Source: Chloropicon primus (Eukaryota > Chlorophyta > Chloropicophyceae > Chloropicales > Chloropicaceae). Taken from it: 64,000 nucleotides of DNA. Shown here piece after piece: positions 35,706 to 64,000 of this stretch. The stretch covers positions 1,396,552 through 1,460,551 of the forward strand of contig CP060757.1 in assembly GCA_023205875.1 (NCBI GenBank). Reading direction: 5' to 3'. The notes below the pieces were generated by a model, which did no database searches, was not told the DNA's origin, and saw nothing but the letters and a program-made list of their open reading frames with translations. The position numbers and the translations under genes were made by a program. Positions within the stretch are counted from its first letter, which is position 1; every line of letters begins with the position of its first letter.

Positions 35706-38700
35706 ATGGACAGGTTCACGTTCTCGCGCGCCCCCGTCAAAAGGGTCGACAGCGTGCAGTTCGGCACGCTGTCTCCGGAGGAGATCACGCGGAACAGCGT
35801 GGCTTGCATAGATCAGACCGCTTTGTTTGAGGGAGGAAAGCCGAAGGTAAGCCGTGCGCCGGCGCCGGCGACGACGTGGAACGCCACTCTCTTTGCTTCT
35901 CGCGCGGTCCCACTGACTTTGTCCCGTTTTCTGCTTGTCCGACGAAACAAAGATGGGCGGCCTGGCGGATCCTCGCATGGGCACGATCGACAGGAACGTT
36001 CTCTGCGCCACCTGCAACAGCAACTTCCAGGAGTGCCCGGGGCACTTTGGCCACCACAACCTGGCCGTCCCCGTGTTTCACTTGGGATTTCAAACCTCCG
36101 TGCTGAAGATACTAAGGAGCGTCTGCTTCAGTTGCAGCAGGATCCTTTGCGACAGAACGGACCCGGCCTACCAGAAGTGCCTGAGCATCAAGAATGCGAA
36201 GCACCGCCAGAGGCAGGTGTACCGGCTGTGCTCGGGCAAGAAGGAGTGCTCTTTCGGTGGCGGGGAGGACGAGGACTTGATGGAGGATGACACGGCCCAG
36301 GGCGGGTGCTCGGCCAAGCAGCCAGACATCAAGCTCAACGCTTTGAGGTTCACGGTGTCGTTCAAGAGAGGCAAGAGGGACGACGAGGATGAAGACGACG
36401 AGCTGTTGGACGAAATGGAGGACCAGGAGCTCAGCGCGGAGAGGGTGCTTCAGATATTGAAGGGCATCAGCGACGAGGACGCCTTTGCCTTGGGGATGGA
36501 CCCCAAGTGGGTGAGGCCAGAATGGCTGATACTGACAGTGATGCCAGTTCCACCGCCGCCGGTGAGGCCGTCAGTGTCGTCCGACGCTTCAACCCGAAGC
36601 GAGGACGACCTGACCCACGCCTTTGCCCAAATCTTGAAAATCAGCGAGAGCTTGAAGAAGCTCATCGCGAACGGGGCGGGAAATCACCAGATTGCGGACT
36701 TTGTCCAACTGCTCCAGTTCCACGTGAACACCTACTTGGATAACTCAGTCACAGGGCAGCCGAGGGGTCTGCTGAGGTCAGGAAGGCCGGTCAAGTCCAT
36801 CGCCCAACGCCTCAAGACAAAAGAGGGGAGGGTCAGGGGGAACCTCATGGGAAAGAGGGTGGACTTTTCTGCCAGAACGGTGATAAGCGGAGATGCCAAC
36901 ATTGGTATCGACCAGCTTGGCGTGCCTTGGAGCATTGCGCTCAATCTGACATTTCCTGAGACTGTGACTCCATACAACCTGGAGAAGCTGACGAAACTCG
37001 TGGAGAATGGCCCTCATCCACCCCCTGGGGAGACTGGTGCGAAGTACATCATAAGGGAAGATGGTCAGAGGCTGGACTTGAGGTACTTGAAGAAGACCAG
37101 CGACAGGCACCTCGAGTATGGTTACAAGGTGGAGAGGCACCTGCAGAACGGGGACGTGGTCCTCTTCAACAGGCAACCGTCCCTGCATAAAATGTCGATT
37201 ATGGGCCACAGAGTGAAAATCATGCCCTACTCGACTTTCAGGCTCAACCTCGCGGTAACTTCACCCTACAATGCTGACTTCGATGGGGATGAAATGAACA
37301 TGCACGTGCCGCAGACCCTGGAGACCCGCGCGGAAACAATTGAGCTCATGATGGTGCCAAAGATGATTGTCTCGCCGCAGGCGAACAAGCCAGTGATTGG
37401 TATCGTGCAGGATGCTCTTCTGGGAACCAGGATCATGACGAAGAGAGACTCCTTTTTGACAAAAGAGCTTCTGATGAACATACTGATGTGGATCGAGCAC
37501 TGGGATGGCGTGGTCCCAACGCCGGCAATTCTTAAGCCAAAGCCTCTGTGGACAGGGAAGCAGGTCTTTAGCCTGATCATACCTCCAGGAATCAATTACG
37601 AGAGAAGATCGGGTTGGCATGAAGATTCGGACCAGAAGGACATGTCTTCTGGGGACACGCAGGTCAAGATTGAAAACGGAGAGCTTCTCACGGGAACCCT
37701 CTGTAAAAAGTCTCTGGGTTCGTCATCAGGCGGACTGGTGCACGTGATTTGGATGGATCATGGCCCCAACATGGCGAGGCTCTTTCTGAACCATGTGCAG
37801 ACTGTGGTGAACTACTGGCTGTTGCAGCACGGCTTCACCGTTGGTATCGGTGACACAGTCGCAGACGAGAAGACGATGCTTAAGATCAACGACATCATCT
37901 CCTTGGCGAAGAGAGAGGTGGAAGACCTCATCCAGGAGGCGCAGGCCGGCAAGCTTGAGCCTCAGCCTGGTAGGACCCTGGTCGAGAGTTTCGAAGCCAA
38001 GGTTAACGCAAGTCTGAACAAAGCAAGAGATAAAGCGGGAAAGAATGCTCAGGCTTCTATTTCAGACCTCAACAACGTGAAGGTTATGGTTACTGGGGGC
38101 TCAAAAGGAAGTTTCATCAACATCTCGCAGATGACAGCCTGTGTGGGCCAGCAGAACGTGGAGGGAAAGCGCATTCCATTTGGTTTTGTGAATCGAACTC
38201 TCCCGCACTTCTGCAAGGATGACCAGGGCCCCGAAAGCAGAGGATTTGTGGAAAACTCTTACCTGAGAGGTTTGACGCCACAAGAATTCTTTTTCCACGC
38301 CATGGGTGGAAGAGAGGGTCTTATCGACACGGCCATCAAGACGGCAAGTACTGGGTACATCCAGAGAAGGCTTATCAAAGCCATGGAAGACATCATGCTC
38401 CGTTATGATGGAACCATTCGAAACAGCATGGGGGATGTCATTCAGTTTTTGTACGGCGAAGATGGAATGGACGGAACTGCCATTGAGGGTCAGAAGCTCA
38501 AGCACCTCAAGTTCAAGCCAAAGAGGTTCCAGGACTGGTACAAGATTGATTTGGAGGACGGGGTGAAGAGCTTAGGGTTTTTGAACAGCGAGGTCACTGC
38601 GAAGATCCTGAACGGAAAGAATAGGTTGGATTACCAAAAGAGTCTCGATGAAGAGTACAACCAGCTTTTGGCGGACGTGAAGAGAGCCAGGATAGAGATC

Positions 38701-41081
38701 ATACCGAACGGCGATGACAACATATACTTGCCGGTTCACTTCGGTCGTCTGATTGAGAACGCCACCAAGAAGTTCAAAATTTCTTTGAGCGAGCAAACAG
38801 ACCTGGATCCTCTCTACGTGATTCAGAAGATCAAAGAAATCGAGGAAAGTATCGAGGTTGTGAAGGGAGACGACGCCTTGAGTAAGCAAGCTCAAGAAAA
38901 TGCGACGACCCTGTTCAAAATGCACCTGAGGTCCACCTTTGCATCGAAGCAGGTCTGCAAGAAGTACAGGCTGTCGACAGAAGCATTCGACTGGCTTGCT
39001 GGTGAGATCAAGCAGAAATTCAACAAGGCTCTGGCTCACCCGGGCGAAAACATTGGTGTCATTGCGGCGCAGAGCATTGGGGAGCCCGCGACACAGGTAA
39101 GTCGGTATTCTTCTCTGACCCCACCCCCTCTCTGACGCTCGTGCTCGACGACACCTTCTCGACGGGCGGCGGACTGACTGATGAATTTTTTTTTGCCTCC
39201 TCCTCTCTGAAACAGATGACTTTGAACACTTTCCATTACGCCGGTGTGTCTGCCAAGAATGTGACCCTTGGAGTTCCTCGTTTGACAGAAATCATCAACA
39301 TTGCTAAGAATATCAAGACGCCTTCTCTGGCGATTTATCTTCTTGGGTCGGCTAGATCTGACAAGGACGAGGCCAAGTCTGTGCAGTGTGCGTTGGAGTG
39401 GACGACTCTGCACCATGTCACGAAGGCCACAGAGATTCACTACGATCCGGATGTTAAGGACACGTACATCGAGGAGGACCAGGAGTTTGTCAGGGCCTAC
39501 TTTGAGATGCCTGATGAGGACATCGAGGAAAGCCGGTTGTCGCCCTGGGTTTTGCGTATCGAACTCAACCGTGAAATGATGGTCGACAAGAACCTGACGA
39601 TGTCAGAGGTTGCCGAGCGTATCACGTCCGAGTTCTCCGATGACCTCACCTGCATATTCAGCGACGACAACGCCGACAAGCTGATTCTGAGAATTCGAAT
39701 CCTGAACGAGGAGATGGCAGGCGGTGAAGATTATGCCGCGGATGACGACCAGTTCTTGAGAAAGATTGAGGTCCACTTGTTGAACAAGCTCATTTTGCAG
39801 GGGGTTCCGGATATCAAGAAGGTGGCCCTTCGTAACACCAAGAGAACTTTCCCAGGCCAAGATGGCTATGATACCGAAGAGGAGTGGATGCTGGACACCG
39901 AGGGAATCAACCTTCTTGAGGTAATGTACCACCCAAGTGTGGACCACACGAGAACGACAAGTAACCACGTCCCAGAAATCGTGGAGGTCCTTGGTATCGA
40001 GGCAGGCAGGAACTCTCTGAAGCACGAGCTGAGGAGCGTGATCGAGTTTGACGGGTCTTATGTGAACTACCGCCACCTGGCCATTCTTTGCGATGTGATG
40101 ACCTACAGGGGTCACCTCATGGCTATCACGAGGCATGGAATCAACAGGCAGGACACGGGACCCCTCATGCGTTGCAGTTTCGAGGAGACTGTGGATATTC
40201 TGCTGGATGCTGCTGCATTCGGTGAAAGGGATGGCTTGGAAGGTGTGAGCGAGAACATCATGCTCGGCCAGCTTGCACCCGTGGGAACAGGTTCCTTTGG
40301 GGTGTTCCTGAATGAGACGATGTTGCAGGAAGCAGTGGAGCCTCTTTTCACGAGAGAGGAGTATGGCTTGGGTGTGGGGATGTCTCCAGGAAGGCAAACA
40401 CCGCATCATCAGACACCTTACGGTGCGATGAGTCCAGGAGGATTGATGAGTCCTGGGGGAGCTGGCCCAAGTCCTTGGACGGGGGTTCAGTTTTCTCCAA
40501 TGCAGAGTCCAGCAATGGGAGGGGCAAGCCCCAACTATAGCCCAACTTCACCGGGCTATTCCCCAACCTCACCTGCATACTCACCTACCTCACCTGCGTA
40601 CTCGCCTACGTCACCTGCATACTCGCCTACATCACCTGCATACTCGCCTACATCACCTGCATATTCGCCTACATCACCTGCATATTCGCCTACATCACCA
40701 GCATACTCACCCACCTCACCAGCATACTCACCCACCTCACCAGCATACTCACCCACCTCACCTGCATACTCACCCACCTCACCTGCATACTCACCCACCT
40801 CACCTGCATACTCACCCACCTCACCAGCATACTCACCCACCTCACCTGCATACTCACCCACCTCACCTGCATACTCACCTACCTCACCTGCATACTCACC
40901 CACCTCACCTGCGTACTCACCCACCTCCCCACAATACTCACCCACCTCACCACCGTACTCACCCACCTCCCCACAGTACTCACCCACCTCCCCACAGTAC
41001 TCACCCACCTCCCCACAGTACTCACCCACCTCCCCACAATACTCACCCTCTTCACCAAAATACTCACCATCAGACCCATAA
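35706..41081 (+). CDS. RPB1: RNA polymerase II largest subunit RPB1
   Basis: Three exons, 35706-35846, 35953-39096 and 39216-41081, give 1716 residues; introns are 106 and 119 nt and carry CTGAC. The N-terminal zinc clamp ([20 protein letters not shown], then CFSCSRILC), the switch/bridge regions and the catalytic loop [15 protein letters not shown] (D489, D491, D493 hold magnesium) are intact. GEPATQ joins [12 protein letters not shown] exactly across intron 2. The C-terminal domain is 25 heptads plus a final YSPSDP (40536-41078), mostly YSPTSPA. RPB1 is the mRNA-synthesising core of polymerase II in the nucleus. Codon use in 37-40 kb is less GC-biased than in neighbouring genes. Confidence 0.99.
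40536..41078 (+). repeat. RPB1: Coding 21-bp repeat: RPB1 C-terminal heptads
   Basis: 26 units of 21 bp: one YSPTSPG, 17 YSPTSPA, then Q, P, Q, Q, Q, Q variants, one YSPSSPK and a terminal YSPSDP. No unit has Ser at position 7. Neighbouring units are almost identical in nucleotide sequence (TACTCACCCACCTCACCTGCA type), pointing to recent expansion or homogenisation. Confidence 0.97.
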
Positions 41082-52223: not shown

Positions 52224-52920
52224 ATGGACTTGAGTCGTGTGCAGAAGGAGATCCGGGAGATATCCCAAGACAAAGCGAGCGGGATAAGCGTGAGGGTGTT
52301 GGGGGAGGACCTCACCAGGCTCGAGGGGACCCTCAAAGGGCCCAAGGACACCGTATATGAGGGAGGTAAGCTCAACACGAACACGAGAACACGAGAACAC
52401 GAGAACGGGAAAGCGAAGCGAAGCGATCCAAGGAGCGAGCTTTTTCGTACTGACGCTCGATGCGCATTCTCTGGTGTGAACGACGAAACTAGGCATATTC
52501 GTCGTGGACATTGAGATAAAGGGGGTTTACCCCTTTGAGCCACCGAAGATGCGGTTCAAGAGCAAAATCTGGCACCCCAACGTGAGCAGCCAGAACGGTG
52601 CGATCTGTCTCGACATTCTCAAGGACCAGTGGTCCCCTGCCCTCACTATAAAGACGGCGCTCCTTTCCCTTCAGGCCCTTCTCTGCTCCCCAGAGCCCAA
52701 CGACCCCCAGGACGCGGTCGTGGCGAAGCAGTACCTGAACGACATGCCTCTGTTCGAGCAGACCGCGAGGCACTGGACGAGGACCTACGCCTCGGAGACG
52801 GCGTCCCAGAAGAACCTCAAGCAGCTGCTGGAGATGGGTTTCTCGGAGGAAGATGCGAGCACCGCACTGGACAACGCGGGAGGGGACCTCAACACGGCCT
52901 TGGCGGCCTTGCTGGGCTGA
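52224..52920 (+). CDS. UBC27: Ubiquitin-conjugating enzyme E2 with UBA domain (UBC27/UBE2K type)
   Basis: Exons 52224-52365 and 52493-52920 (127-nt intron with CTGAC) give 189 residues. The UBC fold is complete: [20 protein letters not shown], then the catalytic C86 in [20 protein letters not shown]. The HPN tripeptide upstream stabilises the transition state. A C-terminal UBA ([20 protein letters not shown]) is separated by a short helix. E2 plus UBA at this length is the UBE2K/Ubc1/UBC27 class, which builds K48-linked chains. Splicing rebuilds [16 protein letters not shown] exactly. Cytosol or nucleus expected. Confidence 0.95.
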
Positions 52921-53330
52921 GAAGGGGTATAGGGAAGATACAGGGAAATCGAAACGAATAAACAAACGGTGGACTGCACGACACGCGTCGCGGACCATCC
53001 TCGCGGCTGGGGCGCGAGGGTCAGTCTCCGCAACGGGCGCCTTCCCTTCTCTTCGTCCGTTGTTTGTATCATTATTTTTTTATTATCACAGTCACAGTCA
53101 TAGAAAGCAGAACATATGTGTTTTTTTTGGGGTGGACTTGGCTTCTTCTCACCGACGGCGAGGGTTGGGGGGATAACGCCAGCGGGGTTCCCGTCCACTC
53201 GACCAAGGCAGTCTGGTCAAGGACGTTCTCTTCAAGCAAGTCTCCGCTGATCCAGCTTTGGCAGCCTTGCCGTCATGCATCACCCCGCGCCGCAAAGTGT
53301 TCCCCAACCTCACCACTCCCCGTTCGTGGC
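52921..53330. other. Convergent 3' regions; holds the SECIS-like element
   Basis: Between the E2 stop (plus) and the GPx stop (minus). AT-rich stretches at 53065-53100 and a T8 run at 53120-53127 may serve 3' end formation. The minus-strand hairpin at 53231-53276 is described separately. Confidence 0.6.
53231..53276 (-). promoter_or_regulatory. Candidate SECIS element in the GPx 3' UTR
   Basis: Read on the minus strand, ATGAC (53276-53272) is followed by a 12-nt arm GGCAAGGCTGCC, then AAA, an apical part, and the return arm CTTGCT ending in TGAA (53234-53231). GGCAAG pairs with CTTGCT (six pairs, one G-U); GCTG pairs with CAGC above a GGAGA bulge. ATGA opposite TGAA gives the tandem G-A/A-G quartet, and AA lies 12 nt above it, as in eukaryotic SECIS. 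It begins 55 nt after the GPx stop. The lower helix is weak by eye. Confidence 0.6.
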
Positions 53331-54155
53331 TCACGCGATCTGGTCGTCGACCTTGCACACCAATCTCCCGGGGTGCAAGAAGCACTCTTCCGGGAGCGGG
53401 TCCCTGCCTTTCAGCACGAGCTGCAGGTCCTTCTCAAAGTCCAGCGGATCGAAAGACGGCTTGTACCTCTTCACCGCTTTGCCCTCCCGGTTGACGAGGA
53501 ACTTGACGTAGTTCCACTCGAGCTCCCCCTTCTTCTGGGGCCTCGTGCCACCGGAGGGCACGCTCGTGGGCTGGTCCCTGCGCAGCAGCTGGTACACGGG
53601 GTGGGCCCCGAACCCGTTGACGTCCACCTTGTCGAAGACCGGGAACTCAAAACCAAACTTCCTCCACGCGAACTCGCGCTCCTCCTGGGACGTTCCGGGG
53701 GCCTGGCCGCCGAACTGGTTGCAGGAGAAGCCGATGAGCTCGAACCCGTCCTTGTTGTACGTCTCGTACAGCTGCCTCAGGGACGGATAGTTGATGTTCT
53801 GCAAGGGTCATTCGCTCGCAACGTTCACAACGACGGTGACCTGTCCGTCGTACCTGTCGAGCGGGACCTCCTCGCCATACATTTTGGCGGAGAGAGCGTA
53901 GAGCCCCTTCCCCTCCGCCCTCGCTTCCCCGAGCGGCCCGGTTGCCAGCGCCAGTCCGGAGCCCAAGGCCAACCCCCCTCGTAGGAGGACCCCCCTCCTG
54001 GTATCGTGCTCGTGCTCGTGCTCGTGCCCTGGTGCGGCCTCGGTCGCCTTCCCGTCCCGGTTGTGGCATCCCTTGGCCCTCGCCCTGGCGTCCCTCGCCC
54101 CCTCCCCTCCACGCGGGAGGACCCGCACCCTCCCCGCCACGCGAGCCAGCGCCAT
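53331..54155 (-). CDS. GPX: Selenocysteine-containing glutathione peroxidase, probable thylakoid-lumen form
   Basis: One continuous frame of 274 residues with a single internal TGA at 53810-53808 (residue 116). The flanks read VVVNVASE-(TGA)-PLQNINYPSL, exactly where glutathione peroxidases carry the catalytic Cys or Sec (VNVAS-x-U). The other catalytic residues follow: FSCNQFGGQAPGT (Gln) and EWNYVKFLVN (Trp, Asn). A SECIS-like hairpin lies 55 nt past the real stop. The 85-residue leader is bipartite: basic transit-like part, His/Glu repeat, then TRRGVLLRGGLALGSGLALA and ARA, a twin-arginine lumen signal with an AxA site. It would reduce peroxides with thioredoxin or glutathione. A true stop or an intron is less likely, because either would destroy the active site. 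Confidence 0.85.
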
Positions 54156-54514: not shown

Positions 54515-56218
<1,704 letters not shown>

Positions 56219-58460: not shown

Positions 58461-59678
58461 ATGGTGAAGACACACGCCACCTCGCGCCTTCTCGCCATCA
58501 CTCTCGCGCTCCTCGCCTGTTCCGCGATGGCGATCAGACCCCTCGAGGACGCGCACTCGCCCCCCGGGCGCTCGCTTTTGGACGTGGGCCAGTACGATGT
58601 ACGCAAGACCTACTTCTCGTCTCCCCACAGTTTGGTGGTGCTCACGCCTTCGGCGAGGAACGGGACCGAACCGACGGGGAGGGAGACGTACCCCGCTATC
58701 ATCTTCGCCCACGGCCTCTGCGGGCCTGTCGGTGACTACGAGGCGATCCTGGAAGCCATCGCGGGGCAGGGGTTCATCGTCGTCGCCAACAGGGAGCAGC
58801 TGCGATGCGGTCCCAGCTGGCGGCAGCTCTTCACCTTCAACCCCTTTGGAAATCTGAAGGCCGCGGCCAATGGTGGAGTCATGGTGGAGAACCTGCGGAA
58901 GGAGGTGGACTTCCTCCTCAACTGGAACCAGACCCCGGCCTTCGACGGGGAGCGCATCGGTCTCGTCGGCCATTCCATGGGGGGAGGCGCCGTGATCGAT
59001 CTGGCGGCCAAGCTCGCCTCCTCCCACCCCGGCATCGTCAAGGCCGTGGCAGCGATCGCCCCTTGGTAAGCCACCTCCCTCACGCCCCCCGCCTGTTTCC
59101 CCCCTTCGTCTGTGCTGACCCCATCTTTCCTCGTCAGGAACGGCATCAACAATGCGGACAGGCCCTCGAGCGTTGCGCACAAGATCAACGCCCCCCTCCT
59201 CCTGATTTGCTCCAAGAACGACCAGATCTGCCCCTGCAACGGCATGGTGGGCGCCGCCACCGGCGTGGGCTACAGCCTCCCCTCCCGCATGATGCTGGGT
59301 GCCGTCTTCGAGGGCAACGACGGCCGGTGGTTCGGCGGCGTGGACGCCATCTACGACGATGCCCTGAAGAACCAGGAGAGGAACAACGTGACCATCGAGA
59401 GGTTTCACAAGGGCGGCCACTTTGCGATGGCGGGGATCAGCCGGGAGGCTGTGATCAGGCTTGGGGAGTCCTGGGGTCAGCCCCGGTGGGTGAGTGCCGT
59501 TCTTCGCGGGTACCACGCCTTTCCCGACTGTTCTTCTGACTTTGCCCTTCTCTCTTTCGCGTCCTTCCTCAGATGGCCTCCATGGGAACCGCCTTCGCCG
59601 AGATCAAGGACGGGTCCAACCCCTTTCCTGAGGTCAAGTCCCTCGTGACCACCTTTCTCGATAAGAACGTCAAGTGAC
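58461..59678 (+). CDS. Secreted alpha/beta hydrolase (chlorophyllase/cutinase-like), copy 1
   Basis: Three exons, 58461-59065, 59138-59489 and 59574-59678, give 353 residues; both introns (72 and 84 nt) carry CTGAC. The start MVKTHATSRLLAITLALLAC begins a clear signal peptide ending in SAMA. The alpha/beta-hydrolase core has AIIFAHGLCGP (oxyanion region), GLVGHSMGGGA with nucleophile S172, CSKNDQICP with D230, and KGGHFAMAG with H296, so the Ser-Asp-His triad is complete. The G-H-S-x-G-G elbow resembles chlorophyllase and PETase/cutinase-like hydrolases. With a signal peptide, an ester-cleaving enzyme of the secretory path is more likely than a plastid chlorophyllase. A near-identical copy follows 2.3 kb downstream. 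Confidence 0.88.
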
Positions 59679-60783: not shown

Positions 60784-62001
60784 ATGGTGAAGACACACGC
60801 CACCTCGCGCCTTCTCGCCATCACTCTCGCGCTCCTCGCCTGTTCCGCGATGGCGATCAGACCCCTCGAGGACGCGCACTCGCCCCCCGGGCGCTCGCTT
60901 TTGGACGTGGGCCAGTACGATGTACGCAAGACCTACTTCTCGTCTCCCCACAGTTTGGTGGTGCTCACGCCTTCGGCGAGGAACGGGACCGAACCGACGG
61001 GGAGGGAGACGTACCCCGCTATCATCTTCGCCCACGGCCTCTGCGGGCCTGTCGGTGACTACGAGGCGATCCTGGAAGCCATCGCGGGGCAGGGGTTCAT
61101 CGTCGTCGCCAACAGGGAGCAGCTGCGATGCGGTCCCAGCTGGCGGCAGCTCTTCACCTTCAACCCCTTTGGAAATCTGAAGGCCGCGGCCAATGGTGGA
61201 GTCATGGTGGAGAACCTGCGGAAGGAGGTGGACTTCCTCCTCAACTGGAACCAGACCCCGGCCTTCGACGGGGAGCGCATCGGTCTCGTCGGCCATTCCA
61301 TGGGGGGAGGCGCCGTGATCGATCTGGCGGCCAAGCTCGCCTCCTCCCACCCCGGCATCGTCAAGGCCGTGGCAGCGATCGCCCCTTGGTAAGCCACCTC
61401 CCTCACGCCCCCCGCCTGTTTCCCCCCTTCGTCTGTGCTGACCCCATCTTTCCTCGTCAGGAACGGCATCAACAATGCGGACAGGCCCTCGAGCGTTGCG
61501 CACAAGATCAACGCCCCCCTCCTCCTGATTTGCTCCAAGAACGACCAGATCTGCCCCTGCAACGGCATGGTGGGCGCCGCCACCGGCGTGGGCTACAGCC
61601 TCCCCTCCCGCATGATGCTGGGTGCCGTCTTCGAGGGCAACGACGGCCGGTGGTTCGGCGGCGTGGACGCCATCTACGACGATGCCCTGAAGAACCAGGA
61701 GAGGAACAACGTGACCATCGAGAGGTTTCACAAGGGCGGCCACTTTGCGATGGCGGGGATCAGCCGGGAGGCTGTGATCAGGCTTGGGGAGTCCTGGGGT
61801 CAGCCCCGGTGGGTGAGTGCCGTTCTTCGCGGGTACCACGCCTTTCCCGACTGTTCTTCTGACTTTGCCCTTCTCTCTTTCGCGTCCTTCCTCAGATGGC
61901 CTCCATGGGAACCGCCTTCGCCGAGATCAAGGACGGGTCCAACCCCTTTCCTGAGGTCAAGTCCCTCGTGACCACCTTTCTCGATAAGAACGTCAAGTGA
62001 C
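60784..62001 (+). CDS. Secreted alpha/beta hydrolase (chlorophyllase/cutinase-like), copy 2
   Basis: Exons 60784-61388, 61461-61812 and 61897-62001. The encoded protein is identical to copy 1, including the signal peptide, S172, D230 and H296, and both introns match in the stretches compared. Since neither third positions nor introns have drifted, the duplication is very recent or kept equal by gene conversion. If the assembly is right, both genes should be expressed from nearly identical 5' regions, including CCCTAAACCCT just upstream of the start. It is the last gene before the telomere, 1.47 kb from the first regular TTTTAGG unit. Confidence 0.88.
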
Positions 62002-62895: not shown

Positions 62896-63418
62896 GGAAA
62901 ACATGCGGTGGCTTGGAGGCACCACGGAAAGGTTGGATGATGCGACAGTGACTTTCTCTTAGACTTCTTTTGTTCCCCGGCTCCTTTCCTTGGCCAGGTC
63001 GTCCTTCCTTCCTTCCTCGGGCAAACCCTACTCAAGGCACTTCGGACCCACGAGAGGGCCTTTTAGGCGTTAGGTCTTGGGACTCCCAAGGCTTTAGGAA
63101 ACGCGGTGACTCGGAGGCACCACGAAAAAATTGGATGATGCAACGGTGTCTTTCTCTTAGGTTTCTTTTGTTCCTCGGGCTCCTTTCCTTGGCCAAGTCG
63201 TCCTTCCTTTCTTCCTCGGGCAAACCCTACTCAAGGCACTTCGGACCCACGAGAGGGCCTTTTAGGCGTTAGGTTTTAGGACTCCCAAGGCTTTAGGAAA
63301 CGCGGTGACTCGGAGGCACCAAGGAAAGGTTGGATGATGCGACGATGTCTTTCTCTTAGGCTTCTTTTGTTCTCCGGCTCCTTTCCTTGGCCAGGTCGTC
63401 CTTCCTTAGGTTTAGGCT
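62896..63418. repeat. Subtelomeric tandem repeat, unit about 198 bp, nearly three copies
   Basis: The marker TTCTTTTGTT occurs at 62965, 63163 and 63362 (spacing 198 and 199). GGAGGCACCA followed by GGTTGGATGATG or its variants recurs in phase near 62915, 63113 and 63313. The copies differ by scattered substitutions, so they are older than the hydrolase duplication. Short frames here are repeat translations. Confidence 0.9.
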
Positions 63419-64000
63419 TGTAGGTTTGTAGGTTGTTAGGTTGTTAGGTTGTTAGGTTGGTTTAGGTTTTAGGTTTTAGGTTTTAGGTTTTAGGTTTTAG
63501 GTTTTAGGTTTTAGGTTTTAGGTTTTAGGTTTTAGGTTTTAGGTTTTAGGTTTTAGGTTTTAGGTTTTAGGTTTTAGGTTTTAGGTTTTAGGTTTTAGGT
63601 TTTAGGTTTTAGGTTTTAGGTTTTAGGTTTTAGGTTTTAGGTTTTAGGTTTTTAGGTTTTAGGTTTTAGGTTTTAGGTTTTAGGTTTTAGGTTTTAGGTT
63701 TTAGGTTTTAGGTTTTAGGTTTTAGGTTTTAGGTTTTAGGTTTTAGGTTTTAGGTTTTAGGTTTTAGGTTTTAGGTTTTAGGTTTTAGGTTTTAGGTTTT
63801 AGGTTTTAGGTTTTTAGGTTTTAGGTTTTAGGTTTTAGGTTTTAGGTTTTAGGTTTTTAGGTTTTAGGTTTTTAGGTTTTAGGTTTTTAGGTTTTAGGTT
63901 TTAGGTTTTAGGTTTTAGGTTTTAGGTTTTAGGTTTTAGGTTTTAGGTTTTGGGTTTTTAGGTTTAGGTTTTAGGTTTTAGGTTTTAGGTTTTAGGTTTT
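63419..64000 (+). repeat. Telomere: (TTTTAGG)n, G-rich strand toward the right edge
   Basis: A transition zone (63419-63466) with GTTGTTAGG-type variants passes into regular TTTTAGG heptamers from about 63467 to the last base, roughly 75 units. A few TTTTTAGG octamers (for example near 63648 and 63809) and single TTTAGG or TTTTGGG units interrupt. The G-rich strand runs 5' to 3' toward the right end, as expected at a chromosome's right terminus. Confidence 0.97.

Follow-up and report, generated by a model that had tools for sequence, protein, structure and literature searches.

A predicted selenocysteine glutathione peroxidase with a possible thylakoid-lumen leader, encoded near a chromosome end of the green alga Chloropicon primus

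Results

Locus and chromosomal setting

The stretch of Chloropicon primus DNA analysed here (the window, 64,000 nucleotides of contig CP060757.1) carries on its reverse strand a gene for a predicted selenocysteine (Sec) glutathione peroxidase (GPx), the features of which are collected in Table 1. A telomere closes the window: between 63461 and 64000 there are 67 TTTTAGG, 6 TTTTTAGG and 2 TTTAGG units, the heptamer predominating, and the region 62905-64000 as a whole comprises 2.5 copies of a 199-bp repeat followed by approximately 0.6 kb of (T)TTTTAGG repeats. The canonical telomere unit of Chloropicon is given as CCTAAAAA in the available portion of one genome paper (PMC6731263), and units ranging from TTTAGG to TTTTTAGG are described in that of a second (PMC12301720). 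The latter (PMC12301720) also lists C. primus with a GC content of 57.4-57.5% and C. roscoffensis with one of 60.4-60.5%; the value for bases 1-63400 of the window is 59.6%.

Near the telomere, the segments 58461-59539 and 60784-61862 (+) each hold a 202-aa and a 244-aa open reading frame, the two pairs being offset by 2323 bases. An alpha/beta-hydrolase gene of chlorophyllase-like type, the start of which resembles a signal peptide, seems to have been duplicated here in tandem. The largest subunit of RNA polymerase II is encoded at 35953-41081 (+), in a gene that has a single intron and specifies its C-terminal repeats in roughly 24 tandem units of 21 bp. Convergent with the GPx gene lies a ubiquitin-conjugating-enzyme-like gene (about 52224-52925, +), presumably of the E2 family, with one GTAAG intron. 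This intron contains a short GAACACGA repeat, and repeats of a similar kind are present at 56032-56206 and, as HEHEHEH, in the leader of the GPx. HemC, a plastid enzyme encoded by the adjoining gene, has an Arg/Ala/Gly-rich start in the same style as the GPx leader. No ER signal is visible by eye in that leader, which suits a primary plastid; together with the type of telomere repeat and the plastid-enzyme neighbours, this supports the green-algal setting that the earlier note on this DNA had supposed. The 64-kb window contains no tRNA genes.

Table 1. Positions of the GPx gene features within the window.
Feature	Positions	Strand	Basis
Frame of the predicted Sec-type glutathione peroxidase, 274 codons plus terminal TGA	53331..54155	-	Translation, Pfam, PDB matches, no inner GT[AG]AG donor
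Leader, residues 1-80: Arg-rich N-terminus, RR53-54, hydrophobic 55-72, A-R-A 78-80	53916..54155	-	Translation, leader score
In-frame TGA, codon 116, peroxidatic (presumed Sec) position	53808..53810	-	Cys in 80/80 bacterial relatives compared (best 80 of 587)
Codon 163 (Ala), column of the relatives' resolving Cys	53667..53669	-	Cys in 80/80 bacterial relatives compared
C-terminal extension, residues 251-274, with Cys258 and Cys267, predicted beta-hairpin	53334..53405	-	AlphaFold2 model; bacterial local matches
Terminal stop codon, TGA, codon 275, 54 nt before the SECIS core	53331..53333	-	Translation
SECIS-like element, form II, ATGA at 53276, 3' TGA at 53234	53220..53285	-	Rfam SECIS_1, core pattern, RNA fold

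A single in-frame TGA at the peroxidatic codon

The translated GPx frame (53331-54155, reverse strand) reads M...IA, and the TGA at codon 116 is its sole in-frame stop. A TAA lies upstream at 54170-54168, the frame is open from 54167, and the ATG at 54155 is the earliest possible start, provided that the leader is unspliced. The Pfam GSHPx domain spans the TGA (residues 87-192, E = 1.8e-28, 98.7 bits against a curated cut-off of 27), and the PDB sequence matches continue across it as well. The proposal of the earlier note that the TGA at 53810-53808 occupies the peroxidatic Cys codon, with GPx sequence on both sides in one frame, is thus borne out by translation, Pfam and the PDB comparisons.

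The 825-nt frame is free of GT[AG]AG splice donors, with five weaker GT-containing words present, and three nearby introns, read by eye, begin with GTAAG or GTGAG. Since the neighbouring introns use such donors and the frame has none, removal of TGA-116 by splicing is unlikely, and we rejected the possibility that it sits within an intron; splicing out of the codon, which the earlier note had named as an outcome that would speak against it, is not indicated.

A TGA bordered by 60 or more open, coding-like codons occurs at four places in the window, of which TGA-116 is the only one that we placed in a recognised protein; the other three were judged by their flanks of 10 residues and by how they overlap open reading frames on the opposite strand. 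A changed nuclear code, in which UGA would be read as Cys or as another residue, agrees with a GPx frame that is open once TGA counts as sense. Against it, both the GPx gene and the neighbouring E2-like gene terminate in TGA, and we placed none of the other three TGA-crossing places in a recognised gene; we consider this reading scarcely credible.

Active site and relatives

In the 52-row alignment Gln151, Trp214 and Asn215 are invariant, as is the column of codon 116, where C stands for Sec. The GPx catalytic tetrad of Sec/Cys, Gln, Trp and Asn is represented here by TGA-116, Gln151, Trp214 and Asn215. Bacterial relatives were represented by the best 80 of 587 confirmed genome relatives, all of them bacterial by title. 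Codon 116 is matched by TGC in 63 of these 80 and by TGT in 17, and the column of the resolving Cys, located in the second block of plant-type 2-Cys GPx proteins, is Cys in all 80 and Ala163, followed by Trp164, in the Chloropicon protein. Sec-type GPx proteins such as GPX4 are not known to have a resolving Cys. The residue after TGA-116, however, is Pro, where the same 80 of 587 relatives uniformly have Gly, and this counts against the explanation that we favour below. As all 80 (the best of 587) are 38-45% identical to the Chloropicon protein and carry both the catalytic and the resolving Cys, there is no sign of a recent bacterial transfer.

A search of viral contigs with the single GPx protein returned no close relatives. 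A wider search confirmed 217 stretches, and among the best 80 of these the catalytic codon is TGT or TGC in 76, AGT in 4 and TGA in none, with Cys in the resolving column in 63. These relatives are uninformative on the use of Sec, given that TGA is found at the catalytic codon in 0 of the 80.

The best PDB sequence matches (phmmer) were a designed GPX4 variant (9.3e-38) and poplar GPX5 (3.2e-37), natural-type GPX4 chains reaching 7.7e-32 at best. By fold, Foldseek placed poplar GPX5 first (PDB code 2p5q; E = 2.0e-17, TM = 0.86 by target), with a best human GPX4 match of E = 5.0e-16, and the folds of human GPX7 and GPX8 were also matched. The latter two are peroxidases of the oxidising ER lumen that use Cys, not Sec. 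Poplar GPX5, a plant 2-Cys enzyme with 43% identity, differs from the Chloropicon protein in having Cys in place of Sec, and its own Cys aligns at Trp164, the residue after Ala163. Mammalian GPX4, close in both sequence and fold, is in its natural form a Sec enzyme lacking a resolving Cys; to our knowledge, it has neither a lumen leader nor a C-terminal extension with a Cys hairpin.

An AlphaFold2 model calculated on the 52-row alignment (mean pLDDT 73.4, pTM 0.68) is confident for most of the domain, with lower values for the block around Sec116 (mean 68) and for the leader (block means 36-60). The local matches to the best 80 of 587 bacterial relatives all stop by residue 255. Beyond the domain, the model predicts strands at 258-261 and 264-268, with block means of 88 (residues 251-260), 82 (261-270) and 46 (271-274). 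Cys258 and Cys267 probably lie on facing strands in this model, and could either be joined in a structural disulfide or take over from the missing resolving Cys.

A SECIS-like element in the 3' UTR

The SECIS-like element has its core 54 nt downstream of the stop codon, at a distance of 531 nt from the presumed Sec codon. It comprises an ATGA/TGA quartet, a helix broken by small bulges, an AAA that stays unpaired 13 nt from the ATGA, and an apical mini-stem. In the available text of a study on Ostreococcus, SECIS elements with the same apical mini-stem are described; nearly all of them have a G before the quartet, in contrast to the ATGA type of the Chloropicon element, and the ATGA type appears once per Ostreococcus species, the O. 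lucimarinus example belonging to a GPx gene (PMC2375036).

The Rfam model SECIS_1 aligns over all of its 64 positions to 53285-53220 with 20.3 bits, against a curated cut-off of 35. The corresponding E-value is 0.75 for 1401 bases searched with 4227 families and 0.06 for 113 bases; these values are scaled by the number of families, and by our arithmetic those for SECIS_1 alone would be of the order of 1e-4 to 1e-5. The score is reasonable evidence only in view of the prior expectation of a SECIS at this site. An Rfam scan of the whole window at curated cut-offs gave no match. In the scan that returned SECIS_1, the unrelated family flavi_FSE, a flavivirus frameshift element, ranked higher by E-value (0.2 versus 0.75); its match, in the part of the gene coding for the C-terminus, reaches 18.7 bits against a cut-off of 43 and was dismissed as chance.

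The folding energy of the hairpin is ordinary (z = 1.37; 186 of 200 shuffles fold at least as well), and what supports the SECIS assignment is therefore the covariance score together with the core motif and where it lies. A strict core pattern, composed after the candidate had been seen, has one match over both strands of the window, and this match is the one in the 3' UTR of the GPx gene. Shuffles of the window contain a mean of 1.5 matches per 128 kb, the size of its two strands, and when only the 406-nt 3' region is shuffled, a match appears in 217 of 20000 cases, so that a match anywhere in the window would be meaningless whereas one at the 3' UTR site is an event of approximately 1% by pattern alone. 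A single mRNA would present UGA twice, once as the presumed Sec codon and once as the terminal stop.

The GPx family, the position of the TGA, the SECIS-like element, the missing resolving Cys and the leader pattern can be read from the sequence itself, and Sec insertion at TGA-116 is what we infer. The earlier note's reading of the gene as a Sec-GPx is supported and gains further backing from two of these features, the SECIS-like element and the loss of the resolving Cys. Alternatively, the gene could be a pseudogene, or contain a sequencing error, in which case TGA-116 would genuinely end translation in the remains of a 2-Cys GPx. The SECIS_1 score below the Rfam cut-off would leave room for this. 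It is at odds, however, with the placement of the only stop in 274 codons exactly on the catalytic codon, with a codon-position GC that is coding-like on both sides of the TGA (GC3 of 0.80 for codons 81-115 and 0.92 for codons 117-274), with a SECIS-like hairpin downstream at the right place, and with the accompanying loss of the resolving Cys. We regard decay or error as very improbable, and a GPx gene with a genuine Sec as highly probable.

A leader of twin-arginine type

The earlier note had read the leader as a twin-arginine (Tat) signal for the thylakoid lumen. The pattern itself is there: TRRGVLL occupies residues 52-58, a hydrophobic stretch follows the twin Arg, and an A-x-A motif (A-R-A, residues 78-80) abuts the mature domain, the GPx fold beginning at about residue 85. 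Its statistical weight is modest. On a Tat-type leader score, written after the leader had been seen, the GPx protein ranks first of 17 N-termini in the window with 1.44, followed by 1.21 and 1.04; the 16 others derive from open reading frames whose starts were taken mechanically, some of which are perhaps not genes. The score is equalled or exceeded by 1258 of 100000 shuffles (1.3%) of the first 85 residues, and its best end is G-E-A78 rather than A-R-A80. Moreover, Arg59 interrupts the hydrophobic stretch, and residues 1-52 include 8 acidic residues and only 2 Ser/Thr.

These properties bear on a second reading, in which a real Sec-GPx resides in the stroma, in the mitochondrion or in both, the RR and the hydrophobic stretch belonging to a common type of presequence, rich in Arg, Ala and Gly, in a genome of high GC content. 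Arg-rich N-termini fit either organelle, and the shuffles that score equally well point the same way. Chlamydomonas offers precedents: in the accessible part of PMC3095285 its two Sec-GPx proteins are described as chloroplast-targeted and plastid GPx as stromal, and in that of PMC9404770 one Sec-GPx is suggested to be mitochondrial. On the other hand, the three elements of the pattern (RR, hydrophobic stretch, A-x-A) are correctly ordered and spaced and end at the start of the domain, and none of the 16 other N-termini attains the score of the GPx leader. A stromal or mitochondrial enzyme is a serious possibility, to which we nevertheless give less than even odds. Targeting of the Chloropicon GPx to the thylakoid lumen is plausible from the leader pattern, and we lean slightly towards this leader being functional; placement next to photosystem II, also put forward in the earlier note, is a matter of inference only.

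Discussion

We favour, at a probability of roughly 0.58, a nuclear-encoded, GPX4-like selenoperoxidase of a green alga that would be imported into the plastid and routed by the Tat pathway to the lumen. The form-II SECIS in the 3' UTR would recode UGA-116 as Sec, and the terminal UGA, 54 nt from the core, would end translation. After entry of the precursor into the plastid, the twin-arginine signal would probably carry the protein to the thylakoid lumen, with cleavage after A-R-A80. There, Sec116, together with Gln151, Trp214 and Asn215, would reduce H2O2 or lipid hydroperoxides. As the usual resolving Cys is replaced by Ala, the selenenic acid would have to be resolved either by an outside thiol, supplied by glutathione or by a thiol protein of the lumen, or by the C-terminal Cys258/Cys267 hairpin. 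Plastid import, lumen location and reductant are each conjectural here. A more specific version, in which the lumen enzyme would be recycled through its own hairpin and not by glutathione, with electrons from a lumen disulfide relay, we consider unlikely.

The nearest described counterparts are GPX1 and GPX2 of Chlamydomonas reinhardtii (CrGPxA/CrGPxB), which share with the Chloropicon protein a green-algal origin, a peroxidatic Sec and an organellar presequence, and the structure of which is said to resemble monomeric GPX4 more than tetrameric GPX1 (PMC3095285, in the portion available). In this comparison, by description only, the Chlamydomonas proteins differ in being chloroplast or mitochondrial, with no lumen signal mentioned in that portion. 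In the available text of PMC7539508, GPX belongs to those algal selenoproteins that have the widest distribution. The name Chloropicon is absent from the main text of that survey and of a second one (PMC6627142), and 'seleno' is absent from the main text of the Chloropicon genome papers PMC6731263 and PMC12301720. As far as their available text extends, PMC7911964 and PMC7678280 contain both 'Chloropicon primus' and selenocysteine, and the main text of PMC7678280, a match for Chloropicon and selenoprotein, does not name the genus. Within the open-licence PMC literature, as far as its searchable text goes, we found no earlier report of a Sec-GPx of Chloropicon or of a lumen-located Sec-GPx, and nothing that combines selenoprotein, twin-arginine and chloroplast.

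The lumen leader and the Cys hairpin, if real, would distinguish the Chloropicon GPx from known Sec-GPx proteins. The use of Sec would be shown for Chloropicon, and the two UGA codons of the GPx mRNA would provide a natural test of how near to a stop codon a SECIS may sit without recoding it. If the lumen reading is true, a selenium-based peroxide defence would be added near photosystem II; if recycling through the hairpin is true as well, a selenium enzyme would be wired into the redox chemistry of the lumen.
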